This document shows, in pieces, positions 26,095 through 42,218 of a stretch of 42,350 bases of DNA. Where the stretch lies: positions 1 to 42,350 of the forward strand of contig NZ_FLQX01000150.1 of assembly GCF_900089955.1 (NCBI RefSeq), written 5' to 3'. The stretch's first letter is position 1. Each line of letters opens with the position of its first letter. Both the position numbers and the translations under genes were made by a program. The notes beneath the pieces were generated by a model. The model was given only the letters and a program-made list of their open reading frames with translations. It was not told the origin of the DNA and did not search any database. Source of the DNA: Candidatus Accumulibacter aalborgensis. GTDB taxonomy: Bacteria; Pseudomonadota; Gammaproteobacteria; Burkholderiales; Rhodocyclaceae.

Positions 26095-26735
26095 GCGGCA
26101 AATCCTTCAAGACTGGCAAGGCGTGCCAGATCAGCCGGCCGATCGACGTCCCACAAAGGCGGTAGCTCGACCCAGCTCAGCGCAAGCTCGGACAGGCGCT
26201 GCCGCGTCTGCACCATCACCCGCTCGCTACCCCACTCGACGCCCGCAAACAATCTTGGCTGCGGGCGCCGCAGGCCGACGAGCACGTAGCCCCCATCCTC
26301 GGCCGGAATGAACACCGCGTCGTTGCTACCCTGCCGCTCATCGACCAGGGCGCCGGCGGCAGCAGCAAGATGCGTCGCCTGCAGTGCCGGACAGTCGCTG
26401 CCGATGAGCAGCAAGGGCCCGTCGTGGGCAGCGAAAGCCGCCGCCATGCGCGCGCCAAGGTCGCCCTCCGACTGACTGCGCACGGCGACTGCGCTGCAGC
26501 GCTGCAGCGCACGAAAAAAACGCTGGCCGCCGTCCGGCGCGCCCCACAGGGTGACAGCGCCGATCGCTGCACGCCTGGCAACTGCCAGCGCATGCAGCGT
26601 CAAGCGACGCTGCAGCCGCGCGGCGCCGGCCGGGCCCAGGGCGGGAATCAGGCGCGTCTTGACAGAGCCCGGCTGCGGCGCACGCGCAAAGACGGCGACG
26701 CCGGCCAACTCAGCGCTGCCGGGGAACATAGCCAT
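26082..26735 (-). CDS. TIGR04282-type arsenosugar glycosyltransferase
   Basis: A small GT-A-like enzyme (DUF2064) of about 217 residues. Visible are the nucleotide-binding start VAVFARAPQPGSVKTRLIP, LLIGSDCPAL with the DxP-type motif, and EDGGYVLVGL. In several bacteria this family pairs with a TIGR04283 enzyme near arsenosugar genes. The ATG at 26735 overlaps the upstream glycosyltransferase gene by 26 bases. No arsenic-specific enzyme such as ArsM or the ArsS radical SAM protein is in the window, so the arsenosugar role is by family only. Confidence 0.85.
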   Translation of the reverse strand: MAMFPGSAELAGVAVFARAPQPGSVKTRLIPALGPAGAARLQRRLTLHALAVARRAAIGAVTLWGAPDGGQRFFRALQRCSAVAVRSQSEGDLGARMAAAFAAHDGPLLLIGSDCPALQATHLAAAAGALVDERQGSNDAVFIPAEDGGYVLVGLRRPQPRLFAGVEWGSERVMVQTRQRLSELALSWVELPPLWDVDRPADLARLASLEGFAAWIE

Positions 26736-27420
26736 AACGAATCGCCAGTTGCTGTGGGTCCGCACCAAAGAAATAGCTCGCCCGCAGACGCCACATCAGC
26801 AGGATCGTGCGCAGGACGCCATGCTTCTCCCAGCGCCGCGCCGAAGTGACGACCCGTTCGCGCAGGCAGGCGGGACTCGCGATCCGCTTGAGGCGTTTCG
26901 ACAGCGCAACGTCCTCCATCAACGGTATTTCGGGATAACCCCCCGCGCTGTCGAATACCTCGCGACGAACGAAGATCGCCTGGTCGCCGGTGGCAATCCC
27001 GGTCAAGCGTGAGCGCTGGTTCATCATCCATTCGACGACACGCAGCAACGGATGGCGGCCATCAATGCGTACATCGAAGCGTCCCCAGGATGCGCCGCCG
27101 ACGATCGCCTGCCGGATCAGGTCGTCGGCGTCCGGCGGCAGCGCCGTATCCGTATGCAGAAAGAGCAGCACCTGCCCCCGACTTGCCCGCGCGCCGGTAT
27201 TCATCTGCGTCGCCCGGCCGCGCGGCGATTCGAGCAGGCGGTCGACGGCGGGGCGCGCCAAGGCGGGCGTGCCGTCGCGACTGCCGCCATCGACCAGCAC
27301 CAGCTCGGCGCCTCGCCTCCTGAGAGCCTCCAATGCGGTCAACTGTGTGGCAACCGTCGCGGCTTCATTCAGCACCGGAAGGATCAAGGAGAGAAACGAG
27401 TGATCGGTCGTGGTTTCCAT
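26710..27420 (-). CDS. TIGR04283-type family 2 glycosyltransferase
   Basis: The 236-residue enzyme has GT2 features: SLILPVLNEAATV at the N-terminus, VDGGSRDGT, the metal-binding FLHTDTALP, and RWGRFD/GDQAIFVRREVF-type acceptor loops with PLMEDVALSKRL. It is the first of three overlapping minus-strand genes, with the TIGR04282-type enzyme and DUF3047. The pairing is conserved in many proteobacteria. Confidence 0.88.
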   Translation of the reverse strand: METTTDHSFLSLILPVLNEAATVATQLTALEALRRRGAELVLVDGGSRDGTPALARPAVDRLLESPRGRATQMNTGARASRGQVLLFLHTDTALPPDADDLIRQAIVGGASWGRFDVRIDGRHPLLRVVEWMMNQRSRLTGIATGDQAIFVRREVFDSAGGYPEIPLMEDVALSKRLKRIASPACLRERVVTSARRWEKHGVLRTILLMWRLRASYFFGADPQQLAIRYGYVPRQR

Positions 27421-27914: not shown

Positions 27915-29683
27915 GGGGTGGTTTCTCATCGAGATTGGCTCGCCTGCCGTCGGGCTTCGACCATGGTGAAAAGCCCAGCCGCAGCGAAGAATGCATTTGG
28001 CCAGCGACAATGGTCGGCATAACACCGGCCAAAGCCCGGACGTTTCTCCTGTTTGCGCAGGAGCGCCCGCAGTCGTCGTCGGATCAGCGCGTCCAGTGTC
28101 TGAAACACGCGCCCTTGGGCATGCTTGAAATAGCCATACCATCCTCTGAGCATCGGGTTGAGGTCGGCAATGATCCGTCCAAGACTGTCGCCTCGCGTGC
28201 GCCGCGTGAGCCGGCGCACTTTATCCTTCAAGGCCGTCAAGCTCTTATTCCTCACCCAGCGCTTGCCCGTTTCAAACCGATAACCGAGAAACTCGAAGCC
28301 TTGCCCTGCGATCCGGCAGTCCCCAAGGTGGGTCTTGTCCGGGTGCAGCGCCAGGCCGTTGGCTTCCACCCACGCTTTGATTTCATCCAACGCTTTCCCG
28401 GCGTCTTCCGCCGTGGGGCACAGAATCACAAAGTCGTCGGCATAACGCACCATCGCATAGCCTTGCCGCGTCACATGCTCGTCCAGCGGATGCAGGTAAA
28501 TGTTCGCCAGCAACGGGCTGATGACCGCCCCTTGCGGGGTGCCGCCCGTCGGCGTCCATCTTTCCAGTCCATGAACAATGTCCTGCCGCAACCGGTCTGC
28601 CAGAAGTTCCAGCAGGCGACCGTCGCTGATGCGCTTTTCGATCCGTTCTTTCAGCCGGGCGTGCGGAATGCTGTCAAAGTAGCTTTTGAGATCTGCATCC
28701 ACCACGTGGGTGTAGCCTTTCTTCAACCACTCGTCGACTTCCCGCAGCGCGTCCTTGCAGCCTCGACCGGGCCGGAATCCGTAACTCGTCGGCAGAAATT
28801 CCTTCTCGAAGATCGGTTCGATCACCCGCTTGACCGCCGCTTGGACAATTCTGTCCTTGACCGTGGGTATGCCCAACGGGCGCGGCTTGCCGCCCGCTTT
28901 GGGTATTTCCACTCGCCGCACGGGAGCCGCTCGGTACCGCCCTTCTTTCAGGTCTTCCGCCAGTTCGCCCAGATACCGTTCGGCATCCGCCGCAAAGCGT
29001 TCGATGCTTTGTCCGTCGATGCCCGCAGCGCCTTTGTTGACCTTGACTTGTTGCCAGGCCGCCATCAGCGTTTGCGGTCGATAGACTTTGTCGATCAGAC
29101 TGAACCATTTGTTTCCTTTGACGCCGTTATCCAGCGCCGCCAACATACGCTCCGTCCAAATGGCGCGGTCGATCCACTCCCGGTTTCCCGGCTGGATGGA
29201 CGAAGCTTGCGTAGCCTTTACAGGCACTACCGCTCCTTCGCTCATGCTCTCGCTCCTCTCAGCGCTCACGTCTCCACCTTCCTACCCGCCTTCCCTCGGC
29301 ACGACTTTGCTTTCCGCGCTTCTCTCGGCTTGCGCCGCGTCGGTACTACGCAGGCTCTGACTCCTGCCGTCTTCACCTCGACGACAGGTCTCCCCGCTTA
29401 TCTCGCGCAAACTTCCCGACATTCCGCCTCCAACCACGTAGGTGACCCGGACATCGCTTTGACCGCCAATACAGCGTGTCCGATGGGTTTCAGGCTTCGC
29501 CATGGAATCGCTGGCTCGCCGTCACTCTCCGCCGAATCGAGTTCGTTATCCTGCGGACTGCCAGTTCGCTTCCGGTTGCTTTTCACCCCGCTTCGCAGCG
29601 ACGCAGTTACCTTCAGCTTCGGGGTCATGGCTTACCCCGGCACGGACTTGCACCCTACTGTTTACGCGCCTTCACGGGCGCAC
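27915..29683 (-). mobile_element. Group II intron, 3' domains not visible
   Basis: On the minus strand the intron begins GTGCGCCCGTG at 29683, the standard 5' boundary, one base after a dRS3-like palindrome. The leader includes the conserved GGGTGCAAGTCC segment of domain I. The reverse transcriptase ORF follows. After its stop, intron-like sequence (GAAACCACC) runs only to about 27915. The approximately 34-base domain V hairpin and domain VI that should come next are not seen; unrelated sequence leads into the left palindrome. The copy therefore looks 3'-truncated and unable to splice by itself. The 3' limit is approximate. Confidence 0.7.
27926..29245 (-). CDS. ltrA: Group II intron reverse transcriptase/maturase
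   Basis: The 439-residue protein has the fingers-palm blocks of LtrA-type enzymes: NKGAAGIDG, KPRPLGIPTVKDRIVQ, PTSYGFRPGRGCKDAL, the catalytic YADD in MVRYADDFVILC, and FLGYRF. A maturase X domain follows (NPMLRGWYGYFKHAQGRVF), with the C-terminal WPNAFFAAAGLFTM. No HNH endonuclease domain is present. The ATG at 29245 has AGGAG 7 bases upstream; a GTG at 29269 is the alternative. The ORF is intact although the intron RNA looks truncated. Confidence 0.92.
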   Translation of the reverse strand: MSEGAVVPVKATQASSIQPGNREWIDRAIWTERMLAALDNGVKGNKWFSLIDKVYRPQTLMAAWQQVKVNKGAAGIDGQSIERFAADAERYLGELAEDLKEGRYRAAPVRRVEIPKAGGKPRPLGIPTVKDRIVQAAVKRVIEPIFEKEFLPTSYGFRPGRGCKDALREVDEWLKKGYTHVVDADLKSYFDSIPHARLKERIEKRISDGRLLELLADRLRQDIVHGLERWTPTGGTPQGAVISPLLANIYLHPLDEHVTRQGYAMVRYADDFVILCPTAEDAGKALDEIKAWVEANGLALHPDKTHLGDCRIAGQGFEFLGYRFETGKRWVRNKSLTALKDKVRRLTRRTRGDSLGRIIADLNPMLRGWYGYFKHAQGRVFQTLDALIRRRLRALLRKQEKRPGFGRCYADHCRWPNAFFAAAGLFTMVEARRQASQSR

Positions 29684-30363: not shown

Positions 30364-30849
30364 TTAGCGACCTTGCACGGCATCGCCGACAATGCGCTCG
30401 AAAATCGGGTCCAGTTCGCTAGCCAGTTTATCGAGCTCCGAATTTCGATAAGGCGAGAAGACAACGCTCGGCGTGCGGTAGCTGACAGAGGTCGTGCCGT
30501 CGGCATTCTCGGTGACGTAGATGCGCAGCGGTGCTTCAATGCCTGCGGCGACACTGGCCTTCAACATGCGCACCGCAAAATCGGGACGGAAGACCATCAA
30601 CACGGCATTGCCGGGAATCTTGATGCCCTTGCTGGCAGCACCCTTGCTGGCGCTTGCTTGGGCAACCAGGCCCATCTTGTTTTCGGTGATCGATTTTTCC
30701 AGTTGCTGGACCACGGTATCGAAGGGCTGCAGGCTGTTGATGGTCCTGATTTCAGGCAGGCCGCTGTTACCGGCGGCGTGAACCGAAAATGCAGCAAGGC
30801 CGAAGGCGAGGCCGGCAGCGATGCTGCGCAGGGTGTTGAGATGAGCCAT
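30364..30849 (-). CDS. Secreted DUF302 protein
   Basis: The 161-residue protein has a signal peptide (GLAFGLAAFSVHAAG) and one DUF302 domain: PFDTVVQQLEKSITENKMGL, AVLMVFRPDFAVRML, and LRIYVTENADGTTSVSY. DUF302 proteins are small alpha/beta proteins found near sulfur and metal-stress genes; the biochemical role is unclear. AAGGAG precedes the ATG. It follows the YedE-like gene by 65 bases on the same strand and may close the bufferin operon. Confidence 0.87.
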   Translation of the reverse strand: MAHLNTLRSIAAGLAFGLAAFSVHAAGNSGLPEIRTINSLQPFDTVVQQLEKSITENKMGLVAQASASKGAASKGIKIPGNAVLMVFRPDFAVRMLKASVAAGIEAPLRIYVTENADGTTSVSYRTPSVVFSPYRNSELDKLASELDPIFERIVGDAVQGR

Positions 30850-30914
30850 GGAAACACTCCTTGTGATTCAGGCTGGCAGGACTGCCGGCCGGGTTGAAAA
30901 AACGCTAAATAGGC

Positions 30915-31931
30915 TTACTGACAGCGATCTCCGGAACATGCGACCGGTGCCATGGCGCCCATCCGCCAGCGCATGATGGCAAGAGTGCCGGCCACCCCGG
31001 CCAGCAGCGCAGCAAAGACCGCAACGGCGTGGGCCGAAAAGGTCGGAATGGCGGCCAGCAGCAGCGTGTCATTGCCGCCCGGAACCAGCGTGCCGCCAAT
31101 ACCCATGAGCAGGCCGCCGATCAATCTTGGTGGCAGATCGCCGAGCTTTGGCCGACGTACTCGGAAGGCGCCGCGGTGCCATGACGAAAAAAGCATCCCG
31201 ACGATCAGCGCTACTAATAGAAACGCTTGCCCCGCTGCTGGCGTCGGGCCGGCATTGAGCCACGAGGCTGCTTCGCCGCGCAGGAAATTGGTGTATGTCC
31301 ACGCGCCCTGAACGGCATACAGCGTGCCACCACCGATGCCGAGCACGGCGGCGGCCGACGACAGACGGTAACGGTCGGCAAGCAAGCGACCGAGCAGCCC
31401 TGAATCTCCGGCATGAGCCCGCCAGAGGCGGATCAATTCCCAGGTGGCCCATAGCCAGAGCAGCACCAGCAAACCAGAGCCCCAACTGTGCTGCCAGAGC
31501 CTGCCTGTGTTGATAGGCTGCAGTGAGACGCCCGGCAGTTCTGCCAGCCAGTAGCTCATGCCAAGAAAGCCGAGGACCATGCCGGCCAGCGAAACAAGCA
31601 TGCCCAGTTCGCCATCGGCCAGGCGTTGCAGGGTCGAGAAGGAGCAGCCGCCATTGACCGCCGCACCGATGCCGAAGACGAAACCGCCGAGCAGTGCAGC
31701 CCAGAAAGGCAGGCGTCCATAAACCGGTTGCAGATCGATTGAAAAAAGCACGATCAATGATCCGGAAATCGTTACCGTCCACAACATCGCCTTGGCAAAA
31801 CTGAACAGCATGTAGGCGGTGCCCGAGGTCATCACTTCCATGACAGCTCGCACCGTACAGAGGCTGGCGCGGTGCGCTGCGAAGCCCATGCCGGCGACCA
31901 GCATGAGTGCCAGAAGCAGGTGCAGGGTCAT
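30915..31931 (-). CDS. YeeE/YedE-family sulfur-compound transporter
   Basis: The 338-residue integral membrane protein has about nine hydrophobic helices. It has the glycine-rich, cysteine-containing loops of this family: HRASLCTVRAVMEVM near the start and AAVNGGCSFSTLQRLADGE, plus VPGGNDTLLLAAIPTFSAHA near the end. Characterised relatives import thiosulfate or other reduced sulfur using such cysteines. A terminal CSGDRCQ adds two more cysteines. It begins 15 bases after the DoxX gene, and co-transcription with the bufferin genes is likely. Confidence 0.85.
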   Translation of the reverse strand: MTLHLLLALMLVAGMGFAAHRASLCTVRAVMEVMTSGTAYMLFSFAKAMLWTVTISGSLIVLFSIDLQPVYGRLPFWAALLGGFVFGIGAAVNGGCSFSTLQRLADGELGMLVSLAGMVLGFLGMSYWLAELPGVSLQPINTGRLWQHSWGSGLLVLLWLWATWELIRLWRAHAGDSGLLGRLLADRYRLSSAAAVLGIGGGTLYAVQGAWTYTNFLRGEAASWLNAGPTPAAGQAFLLVALIVGMLFSSWHRGAFRVRRPKLGDLPPRLIGGLLMGIGGTLVPGGNDTLLLAAIPTFSAHAVAVFAALLAGVAGTLAIMRWRMGAMAPVACSGDRCQ

Positions 31932-31946
31932 GGCCGGGATGTTCGA

Positions 31947-32471
31947 TCAGCGCGCTACGCAGCGCTTGGCCAGACAGTGGTCGATCGATATTTTCCCCGG
32001 GCCGCGGGCGATCAGTACCAGCAGCACCGTCGCCCAGACGCCGTGAGTGGGGTAGGCATCGGGGTAGACAAAAATCTGGATGGTCGCTGTCATGACCAGC
32101 AGGGCGAGTGACGAGAAACGCGTGGCCAGGCCGAGCAGGATCAGGATCGGGAAAAAATGCTCGCCGAAGGCGGCCATTGGCGCAGCCAGTTCCGGCGGAA
32201 TCAGCGGCAACTGGTATTCGCTGCGGAACAGTTCGAGGGCAGTATCGGAAAGATTCGGCCAGCCGAACTGGAATTCGCCGGAGACGATGTCGATGGCAAA
32301 GCCCTCGACCTTGGTCTGGCCGGATTTCCAGAAGATGGCGGCAATCGAGAAGCGGCCGACCAGGGCGATCAGTGAATCTGGGATGCGCGAAAACAGGCCG
32401 ATGAGGCCACCAATCAGGCGGGCGATGGGCGAAGACGGCGCGGGGCATGCGCTGGTAACGGAGGTGTTTAT
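31947..32471 (-). CDS. DoxX-family membrane protein of the bufferin operon
   Basis: A protein of about 174 residues with four membrane segments, matching the DoxX protein that accompanies DUF2282/DUF692/DUF2063 genes. Typical segments are FSIAAIFWKSGQTKVEGF, LPLIPPELAAPMAAFGEHFF, and PDAYPTHGVWATVLLVLIAR. No ATG, GTG or TTG lies at the expected start. The best candidate is ATA at 32471, with AGGAG six bases before it, overlapping the preceding stop as ATAA. The other junctions in this window use ATGA overlaps, so this may be a rare AUA start; an internal CTG is the alternative. Confidence 0.82.
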   Translation of the reverse strand: MNTSVTSACPAPSSPIARLIGGLIGLFSRIPDSLIALVGRFSIAAIFWKSGQTKVEGFAIDIVSGEFQFGWPNLSDTALELFRSEYQLPLIPPELAAPMAAFGEHFFPILILLGLATRFSSLALLVMTATIQIFVYPDAYPTHGVWATVLLVLIARGPGKISIDHCLAKRCVAR

Positions 32472-33238
32472 GTTGGGCTCCTTGTTGGATTCAGTGCCGT
32501 AATGGCTGATTTTTGGAGTAACAGGCCAAGGATGCTGACCAGATTGAAATCGGTGTCGATGGACATCGCTTCTGCCGCCGCTCTGCCGAGGCTGGCACCC
32601 GCCTGCAATTCGCAGAGGAAGGCACCGACCGCTGCGGGAATTTGCAGCACTTCGACATTGAGCCCGTGGCGCAGAATAAGGGCGGTTTCCGGGGCATCCG
32701 GCGCAACCGTTGATAGATCCAGGATGCCCTGGTGCGCTGCCCACAACGAGACCACGGCCGAGGTAGAAACGACCACCGACAGCGAGGGATGCAGTGTCAT
32801 GCCCAGTGTCGGCAAGGTGGCTTCGTCAGCCAGTGCGGCGGCGACCGCTTCGGCGCCAACACCTGGCACATCGGCCGCGTGGTAGGCGACGATGCGGCGA
32901 TATTCGAGCCGCGCCACGTCGGCCAGGTAAGGCAGACCAGCTGCGGGCGGAAAGCTTTCGATGAAGTCGGGAAAGCCGGCACCGTAAAAGGCCATCAGGC
33001 GTGATTGCGGCGGACAGGCATAGGCATACAGGCGGGCTATGGCGCGGAAGAATTCTTCACCGACCAGTTCCAGCGTGACTTCGAAGGTGTCGGCCAGCGC
33101 ATCGATCAACGAGACGATGACGTTGTTGCGATAGACCCGGAAGCGCTGTGCCGGGTCAGAGCCATTCCATGCGGCCAAGCCGGCTGGCGCGGGCAGGTCC
33201 GGGTCGAGCAGCGCGGCGGCGAAATCCTGCTGGCTCAT
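32468..33238 (-). CDS. bufC: DUF2063 partner protein of MNIO (BufC/GigC-like)
   Basis: The 256-residue protein has the DUF2063 N-terminal domain ([54 protein letters not shown]). This domain acts as the precursor-recognition partner of the DUF692 enzyme in bufferin pathways. The C-terminal half is the variable region of these proteins. Its start overlaps the bufB stop by four bases (ATGA), and its own stop overlaps the DoxX start. Confidence 0.88.
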
Positions 33239-34137
33239 GCGGCAACCTCGACCCGGCAGGTTTGCAGCCGCTTTTCCGCCTGCTGCGCCTCGGCAAGCAG
33301 CACGGGGAACGCCGGAATGTCGTTGTCGCGCTCGATCAGCGTCGGCAGCGGGCCGGTCCGTTCCAGCGTGTAGCGGTAAAGATCCCAGACCGCCTGGGCG
33401 ATGGGCGCGCCGTGGCTGTCGATGAGCAGCGGAGCACCGGCGGCATCGACATCATCGGCGAAGCCGGCCAGATGGATTTGCGCGGCCGCCGCTAGTGGCA
33501 GGGCCTCGATGAAGGCCTGAGGATCGCGGCCGTGATTGTTGCAGGAGACGTAAACATTGTTGACGTCGAGCAGCAGGCCGCAGCCGGTACGCTTAACGAC
33601 CTCGCTGATGAAATCGGTTTCGGCCAGCGTCGAAGCGGCGAACTCGACATAGGTCGCCGGGTTTTCGAGCAACATGCGCCGGTCCAGGCGTTCATGGACA
33701 CGGTCGATGTGATCGCAGACGCGCTGCAGTGTCGCGGGGTTGTACGGCGCCGGCAGCAGGTCGTTGAGAAAGATGTCGCCGTGACTCGACCAGGCCAGGT
33801 GCTCGGAAAAGGATTGCGGCTCATAGCGGCTAATTAGGGAAGCAAGACGATCCAGATGCTCTTCGTCGAGCGGACCTTCGCCGCCAATCGAAAGCCCGAC
33901 GCCGTGGATGGACAGCGCATAGTCGCGGCGAATCTGTGTCAGGTAGTGATGGAAAGGGCCTCCATCCACCATGTAGTTCTCGGCGTGGATCTCGAAGAAA
34001 CCGAGATCGGGCCGGGTTACAAGAATAGTGCGGAAATGCCCGGGCTTTAGGCCGAGTCCGCTACGAGCGGGTACGGCACCGGCTCGTAGCGTGGAAATGC
34101 CCGCTTCCTTCGGCAGAAAATGGCTGGCTGTCGTCAT
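33235..34137 (-). CDS. bufB: MNIO enzyme (DUF692), bufferin-modifying oxidase
   Basis: Multinuclear non-haem iron enzymes of this family oxidise cysteines of a precursor peptide; in bufferins they form thiooxazoles. The 300-residue TIM-barrel protein keeps the expected metal ligands: [56 protein letters not shown] and ERDNDIP. The N-terminal [10 protein letters not shown] is also typical. It sits between the precursor gene and bufC, in the classic gigABCD/buf order. Confidence 0.93.
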
Positions 34138-34165
34138 GGCAGGCTCTCCGGGTTAATTCAGGAAA

Positions 34166-34462
34166 TCAGGCTTTCCTTTCCTTGAATTCGGCCATTTGCC
34201 CGTGACCGGTCGGCGAAGTCGGTGAGGCGGTCTTTTCGCAAGTACCCTTCGGGACCAGCGACCAAGAGTTGCCCTGGTAATCAATCTTGGAGGTACCGGC
34301 GCAGGTGGTGCCCGCCCCCGCCTTGCAATCATTCTTGCCCTTGAGGGCGACGCCGAAACATTTTTCCTTGTCGGCCATCGGGGCAGCAACCGGGGTGGCG
34401 GCGACAGTCATGGCAGTGCCGAGGGCAAAGGCGAGAGAGGCGGCGGTCAGAGTCTTGTTCAT
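34166..34462 (-). CDS. bufA1: Bufferin-type RiPP precursor (DUF2282)
   Basis: A 98-residue exported precursor with a Sec signal ([20 protein letters not shown]). Its core has four cysteines at 35, 46, 54 and 75: [35 protein letters not shown] and KGTCEK. This is the DUF2282 pattern. In characterised bufferins the two central cysteines become thiooxazoles, the outer ones can form a disulfide, and the product binds copper in the periplasm. AGGAGATTAAACC precedes the ATG. The modifying enzyme and its partner follow immediately. Confidence 0.93.
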
Positions 34463-34509
34463 GGTTTAATCTCCTGGATTGAGGTGCATCGATAGGACTG
34501 GACAGCCAG

Positions 34510-34533
34510 AAAAACTAGCTGCTGTTCCAGCAG
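34510..34533 (-). terminator. Hairpin with U-run before bufA1
   Basis: On the minus strand CTGCTG pairs with CAGCAG around a 3-base loop, followed by CTAG and TTTTT. It lies between the pentahaem cytochrome and bufA1, about 50 bases upstream of the bufA1 start. It either ends the upstream unit or attenuates entry into the buf genes. Confidence 0.5.
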
Positions 34534-34636
34534 TCGGAATTCGGATCAATTTCTTACACGTCGGCACAAATATTTTTTCGCGATATCAAATGGCAGGGCA
34601 TCACCCACCAGCGAAAGATTTATCGTTCGACCTTGA

Positions 34637-35905
34637 TCAGTCGGGGAGTTGCCGGCGCTCTTCAAAGGCGACAAAGCCAGAAGACTCGGCTTGGCGCAGG
34701 GCATCTTGTATCTGTTTTTTGCCCTTGCCGGCGCTACCGTCGGCCAGCAGGGCACGATAAAAGCGGGCATAGAATTCATCGGGTTCGACGCGCAGGCGAT
34801 AGACCAGCGCCGTTGCCCGTGGGTGGCGCGGCAGGGCGTAATCCAGGTGCAGTTCGCCGCCGGGCGGCAGCCGCGTGTCGGCGATCTCACGGGAGAGATC
34901 GAGCGGCACCTGGCGCTGAATGTTACGGTCGCCCCGGGTTTTGGGCAAAAAATGACCTTTGGCGTCGACCTGTTCGATTTCAGCCACGACGCGCGGCGTC
35001 ACGTAGGTCGGGAAATAATGGCCGGTGCCGGTGTTGCGAACGCTTAAGCCGGTGCGCAGCGTGCCTCTGGCCAGCTCAATCTCGTCGGGCGTGAAGCGGA
35101 CACCGCTGCGCACCATCTCCGGATCGTGGATGCCGCGCCACAGGTGGCTGCGCGCGGGCATGTGGCAGGACTGGCAACTCTGCCCGGCCGCTGCCTGGGG
35201 CGAATCTTTCCATTCCTCGTAGGTGTTTTCCAGCAGCTTGCCGTTAAGGGCGAACTCGTCGGGCTGGAACTGATGGCAGGCCGAGCAGAAACGGGCGTCG
35301 GAAAATGCCTGGCTGACGACGAAGCCGCCGTGCGGCAGGTTTTCGGTGTTGGCTGGCGCTGTGCCGTCACGGCGCGGCGGCCCGTAACGGGTGTGGGCGC
35401 GGACATGGCAGGCGGCGCAGATGACCCCGTGTTCGTGCAGGGCGGGGCGCGGCTGACCGGTCGGGGAATGATTGGCTGCGCTGGCGGCCAAGGCCATGGC
35501 GAGGCTGTCGGCCTGCTCGGCTAGCGGCGCATGGCAGCGGATGCAGTCCTGGTGATCATCACGTGCTTCCGGGGCCATGTTGACCAGTTGCCCGATCAGT
35601 CCCGGCCCCATGGCATGGGCATGTAGGGCGGTCTGCCAGTCGCGGTATTGGTCGGCATGGCAGGTGCCGCAATCGACGGGGGAAAGGGAAGCTTCCAGTG
35701 AGCTGAACCCGGGGGGCGCTTTGCCCTGAGGGGCCTGCGGTCGTGCCCAGTGGCGCTCGAGAAATGCAGCACTCGCCGACGCGCCTTCAGCGACCGGTGC
35801 CGGTGAGGCGACTGGCACGCCATCGCGCTCGCCGCAGCCGACCAGGAGGCACAGAAAAACCGGAAGGGCTAACAGTGCACTTCCCGTTTTGGCTTCGAAA
35901 CGCAA
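34637..35905 (-). CDS. Pentahaem cytochrome c lipoprotein (c554-like)
   Basis: The protein is about 422 residues. It begins with a lipoprotein signal (ALLALPVFLCLLVGC) and carries five CxxCH sites: CGTCH, CIRCH, CAACH, CSACH and CQSCH. The pattern DCGTCHADQYRDWQTALHAH resembles cytochrome c554-type multihaem proteins; a beta-rich C-terminal third follows. The open frame runs upstream to 36139, but that part reads the NPCA gene out of frame. TTG at 35905, with GGAG nine bases before it and 16 bases after the previous stop, is the best start. It probably carries periplasmic electrons; the substrate is unknown. Confidence 0.85.
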   Translation of the reverse strand: MRFEAKTGSALLALPVFLCLLVGCGERDGVPVASPAPVAEGASASAAFLERHWARPQAPQGKAPPGFSSLEASLSPVDCGTCHADQYRDWQTALHAHAMGPGLIGQLVNMAPEARDDHQDCIRCHAPLAEQADSLAMALAASAANHSPTGQPRPALHEHGVICAACHVRAHTRYGPPRRDGTAPANTENLPHGGFVVSQAFSDARFCSACHQFQPDEFALNGKLLENTYEEWKDSPQAAAGQSCQSCHMPARSHLWRGIHDPEMVRSGVRFTPDEIELARGTLRTGLSVRNTGTGHYFPTYVTPRVVAEIEQVDAKGHFLPKTRGDRNIQRQVPLDLSREIADTRLPPGGELHLDYALPRHPRATALVYRLRVEPDEFYARFYRALLADGSAGKGKKQIQDALRQAESSGFVAFEERRQLPD

Positions 35906-35921
35906 AGCGCTCAGACTCCGA

Positions 35922-36182
35922 TCAATGCTTTTTAGCAGCGCAGGGGTTCTTGGCAGCGCACGGATTCTTCGCGGCACAAGGATTCTTCGCAGCACAGGGG
36001 TTGGCTGCCTTGGCTGCGCACGGATTGGCTTTCTTGCCGGCACAAGGGTTGGCTTTTTGCATGTGGTCGGACTTGGCGGCACAGGGATTTGTCGGCGCGC
36101 ACGGATTTGCGGCGTGGGCAAACGGAATGGCGAGGGCAAGGGCGGCGGTGCCGAGGGCGATTTTGACGGATTTCAGATTCAT
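35922..36182 (-). CDS. Secreted Asn-Pro-Cys-Ala repeat protein
   Basis: An 86-residue protein with a signal peptide (ALGTAALALAIPFAHA). The mature part of about 62 residues is almost wholly built from eight NPCA units, mostly spaced NPCAAK, with one insert SDHMQK. Every cysteine has the same Asn-Pro-Cys-Ala context, and lysines alternate with them. I know no proven function. It lies at the head of the run leading through the pentahaem cytochrome to the MNIO cluster. A cysteine-based metal binder, or another MNIO substrate, are hypotheses. The DNA is a tandem array of about 18 bp (roughly 35930-36030). Confidence 0.85.
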   Translation of the reverse strand: MNLKSVKIALGTAALALAIPFAHAANPCAPTNPCAAKSDHMQKANPCAGKKANPCAAKAANPCAAKNPCAAKNPCAAKNPCAAKKH

Positions 36183-36277: not shown

Positions 36278-36341
36278 GGTCATTTCTGCCCGTAAATATT
36301 AGTCGTTAGTACATGGCGATTTATTACACCAGATAGAAAAT

Positions 36342-38926: not shown

Positions 38927-39742
38927 TTATGAAAACACCGAGCACCGGGTGCTCTCCGGCAATTGCCAGGGGGCTGCGGGAGCGGCCTCGTCCGGGCGAT
39001 ACAAATTGGTCAGTTTTTGATCGTCGACCGCAGCAAGCGGTAAATCGAAGGCGATTCGGCCATTTTTCAGGCCGATGACGCGATCGGCCAGCAAGGGCAG
39101 CAGGGACGGGTTGTGGACAACCGTGATCAGCGCCGCATGGCGCGCTGCCTGGCGCGCTGCCTGGGCCAGCAGGTGGCAGACCTCGCCGGCGGCAGCCGGG
39201 TCGAGAGCGGCCGTTGGTTCGTCGGCGAGAATCAGTTTGGGCTGCTGGACGAGCAGGCGGGCGATGGCGACCTTCTGCCGTTCGCCGCCGGAAAGCTTGT
39301 CGGCCCGTGTTTTGGCGCGGGCGAGCAGGCCGACGGCGTGCAGCGCGGCTTCGGCCCTTGCTATCTCGGCAGTCGGAAAGTGGCGAACCCAACTGCGCCA
39401 CCCAACGACGCGACCGAGGCTGCCAATCAGCACGTTTTCCAGCGCGCTCAGGCGGGCAACCAAGTGCAGGCCTTGATGGATCTGCCCGACATTGCGCCGT
39501 AGGGTGCGCAGTTCATGTGCGGACGGGTTATCGGCTAGATTGCGGCCGAGCACTTCGACCTTACCGTGGGCGGCCGGCATGAAGCCGGTCAACAGGCGGA
39601 GCAGGGTCGATTTGCCGGCGCCATTGTGGCCGACGATAGCAATACGTTCGCCGTGGCGGATGGTCAGCGCACCGACATCGAGCAGCGCTCGTCCATCGGC
39701 AATGCAGCACACCTTCTGCAAGGAAATGGAAATCTCGTTCAT
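38927..39742 (-). CDS. phnC: Phosphonate/phosphite-type ABC transporter ATPase
   Basis: The 271-residue ATPase has Walker [10 protein letters not shown], the signature [13 protein letters not shown], Walker [14 protein letters not shown] and an H-loop VVHNPSL. The Q-loop region [20 protein letters not shown] resembles PhnC. The start overlaps the phnE stop by four bases (ATGA at 39739-39742). The order on the minus strand is phnD, phnE, phnC. Substrates of this class include phosphonates and phosphite; the exact one cannot be read. Confidence 0.88.
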
Positions 39743-40632
39743 GACAGGGCCTGCCGGATGCGTCGACTAACGGTGTCGAAGGCGGAAACCATCAGCACGA
39801 TGACGATCAGTACGGTCGATAACCGGCCCCACTGAAAAAGTGAGGTCGCTTCGGTGATCAGCAGGCCTAGCCCGCCGGCCCCGATCAGACCGAGGATGGT
39901 CGAGTCGCGGATGTTGAATTCCCAGACATACAAATGACTGGAAACGAATTGCGGCAGCACGGATGGCCAGATGGCGTTGAAAAAAACCTGGTCGGGCGTC
40001 GCGCCGACGCTGCGCACGGCGTCGATGGCCGCCATGTCGAGCGACTCGATGGCTTCGGCGAAGAGTTTGCCGTAGGTCCCCATCGAGTGCAGGCCGATGG
40101 CCAGGATGCCTGCGGTCGGGCCGAGGCCAACGATACCGACCAGCACCAGTCCGAAGACCAGCGTGTGTATGGAGCGGGCGACGTCAAGGATGCCCTTGGC
40201 CAGCCAGGCCAGCGGCTTGGGGGCAGCCAGGTTGCGCGCCGTCAGCACGGCCAGCGGCAGGGCAAGCAGGGCGCCGAGCAGTGAGCCGAGGGTGGCGATG
40301 CGGATGGTTGTCCAGGTAGCGCGGCCGAGGCCGGCCAGGTAGTCGGCTTCGACTTCCTGACGGTTCTCGACGCGCAGTACGGTGCCGTCGTCGCTCTTGT
40401 ATTCGAGTTTCGGATTGCCGAACCAGACGTCGAGAAAACTCGGGTGGGCGAATTCGCCCACCGTCTTGACCAGGTTGGCTACGGGATTACGCCCCAGCGA
40501 CAGTTCGTCTTCGCGCGCCAGCGTGCCGAGGCACGCGGCGACGAGCAGCGCGTAGATCAGCGTTAGCCCGAGAAAGCCGAGCCGGCCGCTGAATTTGGCA
40601 ACGAAGGATGTCGTCAGAGCGTGGGCACTCAT
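39739..40632 (-). CDS. phnE: Phosphonate/phosphite-type ABC transporter permease
   Basis: The 297-residue protein has about six membrane helices. The PhnE-type cytoplasmic loop is EAIESLDMAAIDAVRSVGAT, and the characteristic NIRDSTILGLIGAGGLG follows. It immediately follows phnD without a gap and overlaps phnC by four bases. A single permease gene probably forms a homodimer. Confidence 0.9.
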   Translation of the reverse strand: MSAHALTTSFVAKFSGRLGFLGLTLIYALLVAACLGTLAREDELSLGRNPVANLVKTVGEFAHPSFLDVWFGNPKLEYKSDDGTVLRVENRQEVEADYLAGLGRATWTTIRIATLGSLLGALLALPLAVLTARNLAAPKPLAWLAKGILDVARSIHTLVFGLVLVGIVGLGPTAGILAIGLHSMGTYGKLFAEAIESLDMAAIDAVRSVGATPDQVFFNAIWPSVLPQFVSSHLYVWEFNIRDSTILGLIGAGGLGLLITEATSLFQWGRLSTVLIVIVLMVSAFDTVSRRIRQALS

Positions 40633-41508
40633 TTACTTGGCCTGCAGCTTCCCGGTCGCCATGCCGGCATCGCGGATCGGCTTGTAGAAAGCGTTATCAC
40701 GGCTGACGAAACCGGTGTAATGCGGTGGCAGCAGCTTGGGATTGCTCTTCAGCGCCTCACCCGTTTCGCTGAGCGCGGCCTGCAGCTTGCCGATCAGGGC
40801 CTTGTCGCCGGCCAGTGCGGCACTGACGGCGAAGGCGTCGTTGGGCAGCGGGGCCGAGGTCCAGATGATTTTCGAGTCCTCGGCCTTGATCAGACCCTGC
40901 TCGATCATCGCGTTGCGATTGCGGTTGTAGTCAGCGCCAGCGTCGAGCACTCCCTGCGTGACCTGGGTTTCGATCGCCTGGTGCGAGGTGTGGATGACCT
41001 TGCTGAAATACTTCTCCGGGTCGATGCCCAGGATCATGAAGTGGTGCAGCGGGATCAGGTAGCCTGAAGTCGAGCCCTTGTCGCCAAAGGCGAAGGTCTT
41101 GCCCTTGAGGTCGGCAAGCGTGTTGATGCCGGATTTCGGACTGGTGACCGTGATGGCGAAATACTCGGGCTTGCCGTCGTAGAGGATGGTCGAAATGACC
41201 TGGACACCGGCCTGGTGATTGGCCAGTACGTAGCCCCACGGGCCCATTAACGCCAGATCGGTTTCGCCATTGGCCAGCGACTTGGCGAGGCCCTCCCAGC
41301 TATCGACGGTGCGCAACTCGACCGGGCGATTGAGTTTTTTCGACAGGTAGTCGGCGAGTGGGCGATAAGTCGCGTCGTTCTTTTCCCGGTCCGGCTGGAA
41401 GAGGCCGACGCCGAACTTGAGCGGCGGCTCGGCGGCGCTGGCTGCAGTTGCTACGGTCAACAGGGAAAATGAGGCAAAAATGGAAAGAAGGCGGGCGATG
41501 CGTTTCAT
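40633..41508 (-). CDS. phnD: Phosphonate/phosphite-type substrate-binding protein
   Basis: The 291-residue protein has a signal peptide (LLSIFASFSLLTVATAASAA) and the PhnD-family fold: FGVGLFQPDREKNDATYRPL, LALMGPWGYVLAN, KTFAFGDKGSTSGYLIPLHH and an SAPLPNDAFAVS-type hinge. It delivers phosphonate, phosphite or a similar oxyanion to the PhnE/PhnC transporter. The start overlaps the preceding gene by four bases (ATGA). Confidence 0.9.
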   Translation of the reverse strand: MKRIARLLSIFASFSLLTVATAASAAEPPLKFGVGLFQPDREKNDATYRPLADYLSKKLNRPVELRTVDSWEGLAKSLANGETDLALMGPWGYVLANHQAGVQVISTILYDGKPEYFAITVTSPKSGINTLADLKGKTFAFGDKGSTSGYLIPLHHFMILGIDPEKYFSKVIHTSHQAIETQVTQGVLDAGADYNRNRNAMIEQGLIKAEDSKIIWTSAPLPNDAFAVSAALAGDKALIGKLQAALSETGEALKSNPKLLPPHYTGFVSRDNAFYKPIRDAGMATGKLQAK

Positions 41509-42218
41509 GGTTGCTCCAGGGTTTCAAGTCGTTGAATCAGGCTTGGCACGTCGATGGGTAGGTAGGTGGTGATGTCGAGGTCGCGATCTTCAAAAACATC
41601 GCGACCGGGAAGCTTTTCCTGCCTGTCGGCGATGACGGCATCGCGCTGGCGAACAAGCTCTTCGATATACGGCCGGTACAGACGAACCATGGCCGCGATC
41701 CAGCGATTGACCGCCCAGTTCGGAAAGGCGTGCCCGATGGCGAAGAGGTCGAGCATGGCGACGACCTGTTCGGCCGGGTACCACGCTTCGGCCGTCACCC
41801 AGCGATTGGTGCAGAACAGCCCCATCGGGTAACCCCAGGCATCCATCGAGATGGCGACGAGATGGCTGATCGCTTCGTCGCCGGTCGGCCAGGGGTCGCT
41901 GGCCAGCGGGTAGTCGATTGGCCGGCTGCCTTCGGGCATGCCATCGGCGCGCAGGAATGTGTGGAAATGGCCGTGTTCATCGTCGTTACCGCGGTGCGCA
42001 TGGTAGTAATACTGGCCGTGTGTCTCAGCATCGAAGACATCGTCGCTCGGGTAATGCTCGATTTCGACGAAATCTCCCTGGCCGCGCAGGACTTCGCCAA
42101 CGATGTTGAGGCCGCCATTTTCCAAGGCCCGGTAACAGGCTTCAATCTCGCGGCCGGCGGCAAGCATCTCGCGGCGCCGGGCGGTGGGCAGGGCAGTGAG
42201 GTCGATTTCCGGGATCAT
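41505..42218 (-). CDS. Conserved protein of unknown function ahead of phnD
   Basis: A 237-residue cytosolic protein with a His-rich segment (QYYYHAHRGNDDEHGHFHTF), then AISMDAWGYPMGLFCTNRW and FAIGHAFPNWAVNRWIAAM. It is probably of the DUF6969 type (name from memory); no reaction is known to me. The cluster of histidines could bind a metal. It is translationally coupled to phnD by a four-base overlap and has no membrane segment. Confidence 0.7.
   Translation of the reverse strand: MIPEIDLTALPTARRREMLAAGREIEACYRALENGGLNIVGEVLRGQGDFVEIEHYPSDDVFDAETHGQYYYHAHRGNDDEHGHFHTFLRADGMPEGSRPIDYPLASDPWPTGDEAISHLVAISMDAWGYPMGLFCTNRWVTAEAWYPAEQVVAMLDLFAIGHAFPNWAVNRWIAAMVRLYRPYIEELVRQRDAVIADRQEKLPGRDVFEDRDLDITTYLPIDVPSLIQRLETLEQP

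Follow-up and report, generated by a model that had tools for sequence, protein, structure and literature searches.

We analysed a 42,350-nt stretch of the genome of Candidatus Accumulibacter aalborgensis (contig NZ_FLQX01000150.1 of GCF_900089955.1; this whole stretch is the window, and all coordinates refer to it) in which a bufferin biosynthesis cassette lies among genes of another kind. Eight genes, each with an open reading frame, are present on the minus strand where an initial annotation had placed them. They are transcribed in the order NPCA-repeat peptide, pentahaem lipoprotein, DUF2282, MNIO, DUF2063, DoxX, YeeE/YedE, and DUF302 (Table 1). The gene families and their order confirm the claim of that annotation that an intact bufferin/gig-type cassette is joined here to sulfur-transport, DUF302, pentahaem, and NPCA genes. 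The cassette sits inside the set that we term the NPC module, between the pentahaem and YeeE genes.

Table 1. Features of the window, in order of transcription within the set, with the outlying gene last. ECF, extracytoplasmic function; RiPP, ribosomally synthesized and post-translationally modified peptide.
Feature	Position	Strand	Remarks
ECF-type promoter-like site P1	36301..36328	-	TGTAATAAA-N14-CGACT; strict motif match; 146 bp from NPCA start codon
NPCA-repeat exported peptide	35922..36182	-	86 aa, 8 Cys in 8 NPCA units; signal peptide by eye
Pentahaem c-type lipoprotein	about 34637..35905	-	5 CXXCH; lipobox LVGC by eye
ECF-type promoter-like site P2	34532..34558	-	TGTAAGAAA-N13-CGACT; strict motif match; 96 bp from DUF2282 start codon
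DUF2282 (Buf1/GigP-type) RiPP precursor	34166..34462	-	PF10048 84.7 bits, cut-off 22.4; 4 Cys; signal peptide by eye
MNIO bufferin maturase BufB	33235..34137	-	PF05114 344.8 bits; NCBIfam MNIO_BufB NF050167 375.9 bits, cut-off 310
DUF2063 partner protein BufC	32468..33238	-	PF09836 90.5 bits, cut-off 27.2
DoxX-type membrane protein	about 31947..32471	-	PF07681 60.4 bits, cut-off 23.6
YeeE/YedE-type Sulf_transp membrane transporter, NPC-module gene	30915..31931	-	PF04143 100.4 bits
Exported DUF302 protein, NPC-module gene	30364..30849	-	40.9 bits
DUF6969 protein, tentative outlying NPC-module gene	41505..42218	-	PF22308 279.1 bits; 5.3 kb upstream

The NPCA and pentahaem genes are separated by 16 bp when measured by hand to a TTG start, or by 19 bp if the start is at 35902; the pentahaem gene has no ATG start and begins with TTG or CTG at an uncertain position. 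The remaining gaps, counted downstream from the pentahaem gene, are 174, 28, -4, -4, 15, and 65 bp, and the second promoter-like site lies within the 174 bp between the pentahaem and DUF2282 genes. At the start position of DoxX (32471-32469, minus strand), which overlaps the DUF2063 stop, the codon is ATA; the relatives L167, L168, and L184 have ATG there. A scan for sigma-70 promoters and terminators was uninformative: it gave 0 promoters against an expectation of 1.5, and 8 terminator-like sites against 5.9.

The cassette belongs to the Buf1 (DUF2282) type that is known as bufferin, gig (gigPABT), or captophorin. A DUF2282 precursor with cysteines stands before a BufB-type MNIO, and the DUF2063 and DoxX genes follow in the canonical order. 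Its proteins scored below the HvfC and HvfX cut-offs in the NCBIfam scan. The pentahaem protein has the five CXXCH sites and the common fold of the pentahaem c552/PHC cytochromes, and it scored far under the NCBIfam cut-off for ExtKL (NF040886; 58.4 vs 250 bits). It differs from cytochrome c552 of Thermochromatium tepidum (5ze8) and from ExtKL/PHC in being a lipoprotein and in being partnered with NPC peptide genes.

We scanned named genomes with an alignment of the pentahaem protein and kept the best 80 of 332 loci; all counts below out of 80, 59, or 21 refer to these. Only 33 of the 80 have full flanks, so absences in this set are partly missing sequence. NPC-repeat genes were found in 59 of the 80 loci and reversed or scrambled patterns in none, so the repeats are not a product of chance. 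In 43 of these 59 loci an NPC gene lies directly upstream of the pentahaem gene and in the same direction, with ends less than 800 bp apart (median gap 83 bp). DUF302 was present in 20 of the 59 NPC-bearing loci, the YedE type in 29/80, and an exported protein in 26/80 that we call cupredoxin-like from a match below the cut-off (14.7 bits, cut-off 27). None of these three occurred in the 21 loci lacking NPC. DUF6969 was found in 28 of the 80, that is in 27/59 with NPC and 1/21 without, and YeeE of the window type in 3/80. A SoxA/TsdA-like cytochrome was encoded in 47/80 loci. All 32 members that were read or aligned had one CXXCH and NPC repeats at both ends. Other genes in the 80 loci were ECF sigma factors (25), HD-GYP (12), DsbD-like (11), and, judged by eye, AhpD-like (10). 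The module occurs in Betaproteobacteria, Gammaproteobacteria, and Magnetococcales among these loci. On these data we assign the NPC peptide, the pentahaem lipoprotein, YeeE, and DUF302 to a conserved module of their own, the NPC module, which is mostly found without MNIO; the window carries a version cut down to the NPCA peptide, the pentahaem lipoprotein, a YeeE-type transporter, and DUF302. No description of this module was found in the literature searched; other literature that we drew on, in portions, was PMC12452194, PMC13097082, PMC3240639, and PMC11976967.

Most of the NPC peptides are rich mainly in Cys and Lys, and a few have runs of His and Met. Those of L145, L148, and L155, which lie beside a pentahaem gene, have His/Met or KHD runs. 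A possible second NPC family was seen in L079, L082, and L083, where NPC-repeat proteins have Arg-rich spacers (NPCAAGNPCAPARR) and a pentahaem or SoxA-like match is absent within reach. Pentahaem orthologs without NPC were observed in Rokubacteria and a Terrabacteria record (L153, L154, L157-L162), with an aminopeptidase-like gene, identified by eye, in six of these eight loci.

The two gene sets are largely distributed separately. In a sample of 199 genomes of the window's family, an NPCA match was found in 18, a pentahaem match in 24, and an MNIO match in 96. By score (E 1.5e-79 or better), 14 of the 24 pentahaem matches were counted as orthologs. MNIO was found in 2/14 of the genomes with a pentahaem ortholog vs 94/185 of the others (Fisher p 0.011, uncorrected for relatedness), or in 1/13 when the window genome was left out (p 0.0028, likewise uncorrected). 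We chose 18 related genomes for their NPC or pentahaem matches, four of them less than 90% complete. Two of these have MNIO and 16 show none, so that in general NPCA does not depend on MNIO. A direct NPC match was present in 14 of the 18. The other four were G132 and G163, where an NPC gene adjoins the pentahaem gene, G004, which has an NPC-tailed cytochrome, and G156, which has none of these. Left out were G007, G084, and G144, with NPC matches at 33-38% identity (G007 has MNIO and the other two have no listed MNIO match), and ten genomes with weak pentahaem matches only.

The same separation was seen from the bufferin side. We examined the 27 nearest bufferin loci of the family sample (L166-L185 and L189-L195, from 32 fetched) over about 6 kb on each side, less at contig ends. 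NPC, pentahaem, DUF302, and window-type YeeE genes were found beside none of them, and the window cassette differs from its nearest relatives in this respect; L177 has a YedE at 35% identity about 4 kb away. Five of the fetched loci were kept out of this count: L186, an NPC locus whose MNIO is 11 kb distant, the window-genome loci L187 and L188, and L196 and L197 (G060). L187 and L188 are two further MNIO loci of the window genome, and the gene order of L187 is, by eye, common to Accumulibacter loci among L084-L091. We rejected YeeE and DUF302 as bufferin accessories on the 0/27 count, and NPCA as a second MNIO substrate in any general role on the 16 of 18 chosen genomes without MNIO. The proposal of the initial annotation that the extra genes serve the bufferin pathway is unsupported, and for the cysteine supply to thiooxazole formation that it envisaged our results gave no support. 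Independent placement of the flanking genes, which that annotation had itself named as grounds for refutation, was largely what we observed.

A complete four-gene bufferin core was present in 4 of the 80 pentahaem loci and was co-directional in all four. In L102 (Sulfuritalea) it follows YedE, in L128 (Gallionella) and L152 (Burkholderiales) it separates the NPC gene from the pentahaem gene, and in L122 (Acidiferrobacteraceae) it is some 5.4 kb downstream of the pentahaem gene. The 1.27 Mb covered by the pentahaem loci should contain about 0.2 such cores (Poisson p about 8e-5, taking 0.22). This figure was calculated from 142 match rows, which were counted by eye and include fragments, across 199 genomes with a size of about 3.8 Mb; it is rough because a single family supplied the rate and several families the loci. 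When 37 MNIO proteins are placed on a tree, the six from NPC loci require 4 label changes, at least 3 of which are forced by well-supported branches. Since a change can be either a gain or a loss, these need not be three joinings, and two branches of the tree are long. The proteins of the window and of L102 fall at different places among those without NPC, so these two look like separate joinings, distinct from the side with L122, L128, and L152. The MNIO nearest to the window protein (85%) is from L166, outside any NPC locus.

A recurring TGTAAGRAA...CGACT was noticed on reading the stretches before DUF2282 genes, and a loose form of the motif stood before 21 of 33 such genes. A strict form, TGTAADRAW-N12-14-CGACT, was fixed after the listings of the 80 loci, and its reversed pattern was the control. 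In the 4.7-Mb window genome there were three strict matches and 0 reversed ones. The matches are at 36328 before NPCA, at 34558 before DUF2282, and at a contig edge without a clear gene. The 80 pentahaem loci contained 39 strict sites vs 0 controls, which stood before NPC or SoxA-like genes (15), zinc anti-sigma genes (4), DUF2282 (2), HD-GYP (2), DUF3179 (1), and other genes (7), with none assigned for 8. The 27 bufferin loci had 10 strict sites, every one of them before DUF2282 (10 of 26 readable genes; control 0).

Whole genomes gave a similar picture. Among the 18 NPC/pentahaem genomes, nine had strict sites, 18 in total (reversed control 3). By eye, these preceded NPC genes (2; G137 and G167), DUF2282 (2, both in G163), HD-GYP (2), ArsS-like radical SAM genes in G137, G044, and G167 (L211, L212, and L221; three genomes of one genus), and exported thioredoxin-like genes (3 of the 18; G129, G132, and G163), with 6 other or unclear. 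Twelve MNIO genomes had 9 sites in nine of them (control 3); six of the nine precede a bufferin precursor, all in loci already examined. Among 16 genomes that were absent from our lists of MNIO, NPC, and pentahaem matches, one had a site (control 2). At least one site was therefore present in 18/30 genomes chosen for NPC, pentahaem, or MNIO vs 1/16 with none listed (Fisher p 0.0004). The same motif before both modules of the window, with the four cores against about 0.2 expected and the scatter over the MNIO tree, bears out the view that the linkage exceeds chance.

Because the motif stands before both NPCA and DUF2282, two start points are favoured. One operon read from a single promoter, which we also considered, is not favoured given the two sites. 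The eight genes are co-directional, as the initial annotation has them, but they are not simply a single extended bufferin operon. Read-through between the modules may occur, and YeeE and DUF302 appear near enough to be read together with the bufferin genes.

Members of one ECF sigma family adjoin 25/80 pentahaem loci and 14/27 bufferin loci. A single full ortholog, 57% identical, is present in the window genome on another contig (TIGR02943 258.2 bits, cut-off 162.2); three other matches there are weak (24-30%). The sigma gene is followed by one for a 65-residue protein that has Cys4, His30, Cys34, and Cys37 if numbering starts at the first of two ATGs. This is the arrangement of an ECF sigma followed by a zinc-binding anti-sigma (ZAS) that characterizes the sigmaE/MseR type. 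The corresponding Neisseria operon encodes MNIO and DUF2063 proteins. For MseR of Neisseria the same Cys4, His30, Cys34, and Cys37 positions are reported, and the regulon (NMB2140-2145, msrAB) is small, as here (portions of PMC2893595). The Neisseria sigmaE consensus is GTMAGBWTT, 12-13 nt, CGTCTAAH; its -35 element resembles GTAADRAW of our motif, and its -10 element, CGTCT, is one base off from our CGACT. The portions of that text covered do not name the NPC module.

A bufferin cassette likewise adjoins an ECF sigma in Cupriavidus metallidurans, where gigPABT lies next to rpoQ-rsqA and is induced by copper and gold, and where control of gig by RpoQ is assumed and unproven (portions of PMC10304878 and PMC11022561). 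The gap between gigP and rpoQ in strain CH34 has TGTAACC-type sites without a CGACT box, unlike the window, and RpoQ aligns with the sigma factors studied here only partially, at 25-36%.

Together, we lean towards the explanation that the window carries, end to end, two modules of a single ECF-sigma regulon, and that both serve one response to thiophilic-metal or thiol stress. The module boundaries, the NPC modules without MNIO, the joining at several places of the MNIO tree, and the same rare motif before both modules were computed directly; the function that we infer for the two modules is the most likely one. An MseR-like zinc anti-sigma, encoded elsewhere in the genome, would free the sigma factor under thiophilic-metal or thiol stress. 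P1 would then drive NPCA and the pentahaem cytochrome, and P2 would drive the bufferin cassette and continue into YeeE and DUF302. MNIO would form thiooxazoles on the bufferin, which would then be exported. NPCA would be exported with free cysteines and may bind Cu(I) or another soft metal, and the haem proteins (the pentahaem protein and, in many relatives, the SoxA/TsdA-like cytochrome) may set the thiol redox state. More tentatively, the NPC module could be an MNIO-independent counterpart of the bufferins, in which two haem proteins of the periplasm, the pentahaem lipoprotein and a SoxA/TsdA-like cytochrome with the peptide's repeats at its own ends, would act on the thiols of an exported multi-Cys repeat peptide. 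It would be under the ECF sigma that also controls bufferins, and would be able to replace or join them.

The surroundings of the NPC loci fit a metal response, as these loci are often among metal(loid) detoxification genes, and so do the His/Met runs of some NPC peptides (L145 and L155). A MerA-like cluster was found in 18/59 NPC loci vs 1/21 without NPC, ArsS in 8/59 vs 0/21, ArsM in 5/59 vs 0/21, and MerT in 4/59 vs 0/21. One member of each family was run against NCBIfam, and the ArsM member matched only under the cut-off.

Several results weigh against the stress-regulon explanation. MerR-like (7/59 vs 2/21) and CopA-like (2/59 vs 2/21) genes were not clearly enriched in NPC loci. The sigma gene of the window genome is unlinked to the window and has no strict motif. 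The loose motif found 12/46 stretches upstream of SoxA-like genes and 2/39 upstream of sigma genes, and it was absent at NPC in six Accumulibacter loci near the window (L084, L085, L087, L088, L089, and L091). Only 2 of the 18 whole-genome strict sites are directly before an NPC gene, and the chance level of the motif is above zero (reversed pattern 3 in 18 genomes and 5 in 28). The motif counts in the 80 and 27 loci are measures of specificity and no independent test, because the motif was derived from the same stretches. The exclusion between MNIO and NPC may reflect phylogeny, and the SoxA-like NPC cytochrome was not found in the window genome. Finally, the sox clusters of Sulfitobacter include DUF302 and YeeE/YedE genes (portions of PMC11034169), which favours sulfur chemistry.

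The last point gives more weight to a sulfur carrier and less to the explanation that we prefer. As a sulfur carrier, the NPC peptides and tails would act like many SoxY arms; the SoxA/TsdA-like cytochrome would couple thiosulfate or persulfide to the cysteines of these peptides and tails, with the pentahaem protein as electron acceptor, and YedE/YeeE would move the sulfur compound inward. The domain of the NPC-tailed cytochrome also fits sulfur chemistry, since it matched the SoxA/TsdA family PF21342 (43.7 bits, cut-off 27; one member scanned). SoxA/TsdA cytochromes were the best rows in the fold comparison, a tentative likeness. It differs from these in its NPC repeats at both ends and in its single haem; the two haem sites of the SoxA/TsdA thiosulfate enzyme were seen in none of the 32 members. 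We regard the sulfur carrier as somewhat unlikely, and as the main and serious rival to the soft-metal or thiol stress that we favour.

One extended bufferin pathway, in which YeeE and DUF302 supply sulfur, MNIO also modifies NPCA, and the cytochrome serves maturation or copper handling, would account for the places where the cassette is lodged: among NPC-module genes in the window, between the NPC gene and the pentahaem gene of L128 and of L152, and behind YedE in L102. The small distances to YeeE and DUF302 (15 and 65 bp) permit read-through, and a few Buf1-Cytochrom_C fusions are reported in the landscape paper, whose main text has 0 mentions of NPC, YeeE, and DUF302. However, 16 of the 18 chosen NPC/pentahaem genomes show no MNIO, all 27 nearest bufferin loci are without NPC-module genes, and the promoter-like sites are separate, so that this pathway is improbable. 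Two unrelated stress modules that landed side by side would agree with the rarity of joint loci (4/80) and with the tendency of NPC and MNIO to exclude each other across genomes, but such chance neighbours are very improbable given that joint loci come from different parts of the MNIO tree, that 4/4 of them are co-directional, and that one rare motif precedes both modules.

Other genes were observed around the set. An arsenosugar biosynthesis glycosyltransferase gene (TIGR04283; 277.9 bits, cut-off 182) lies at 26710-27420 on the minus strand, about 3 kb from the set, and a long frame at 27926-29269 (minus strand) resembles, by eye, a group II intron reverse transcriptase. On the same strand at 38927-42218, DUF6969 is followed by genes that resemble, by eye, a PhnD/E/C-type ABC transporter.

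The stress-regulon explanation provides a concrete candidate promoter for the ECF-sigma control of bufferins that has been assumed but is unproven in Cupriavidus. It also ties a gene set without a description in the literature searched, through a promoter motif, to the bufferin family of copper peptides. Because the same rare promoter signal is on both modules, these data suggest that the NPC peptides may be a second kind of cell-envelope stress peptide. If this is true, cells may use two chemistries, thiooxazoles and plain thiol repeats, against one stress.

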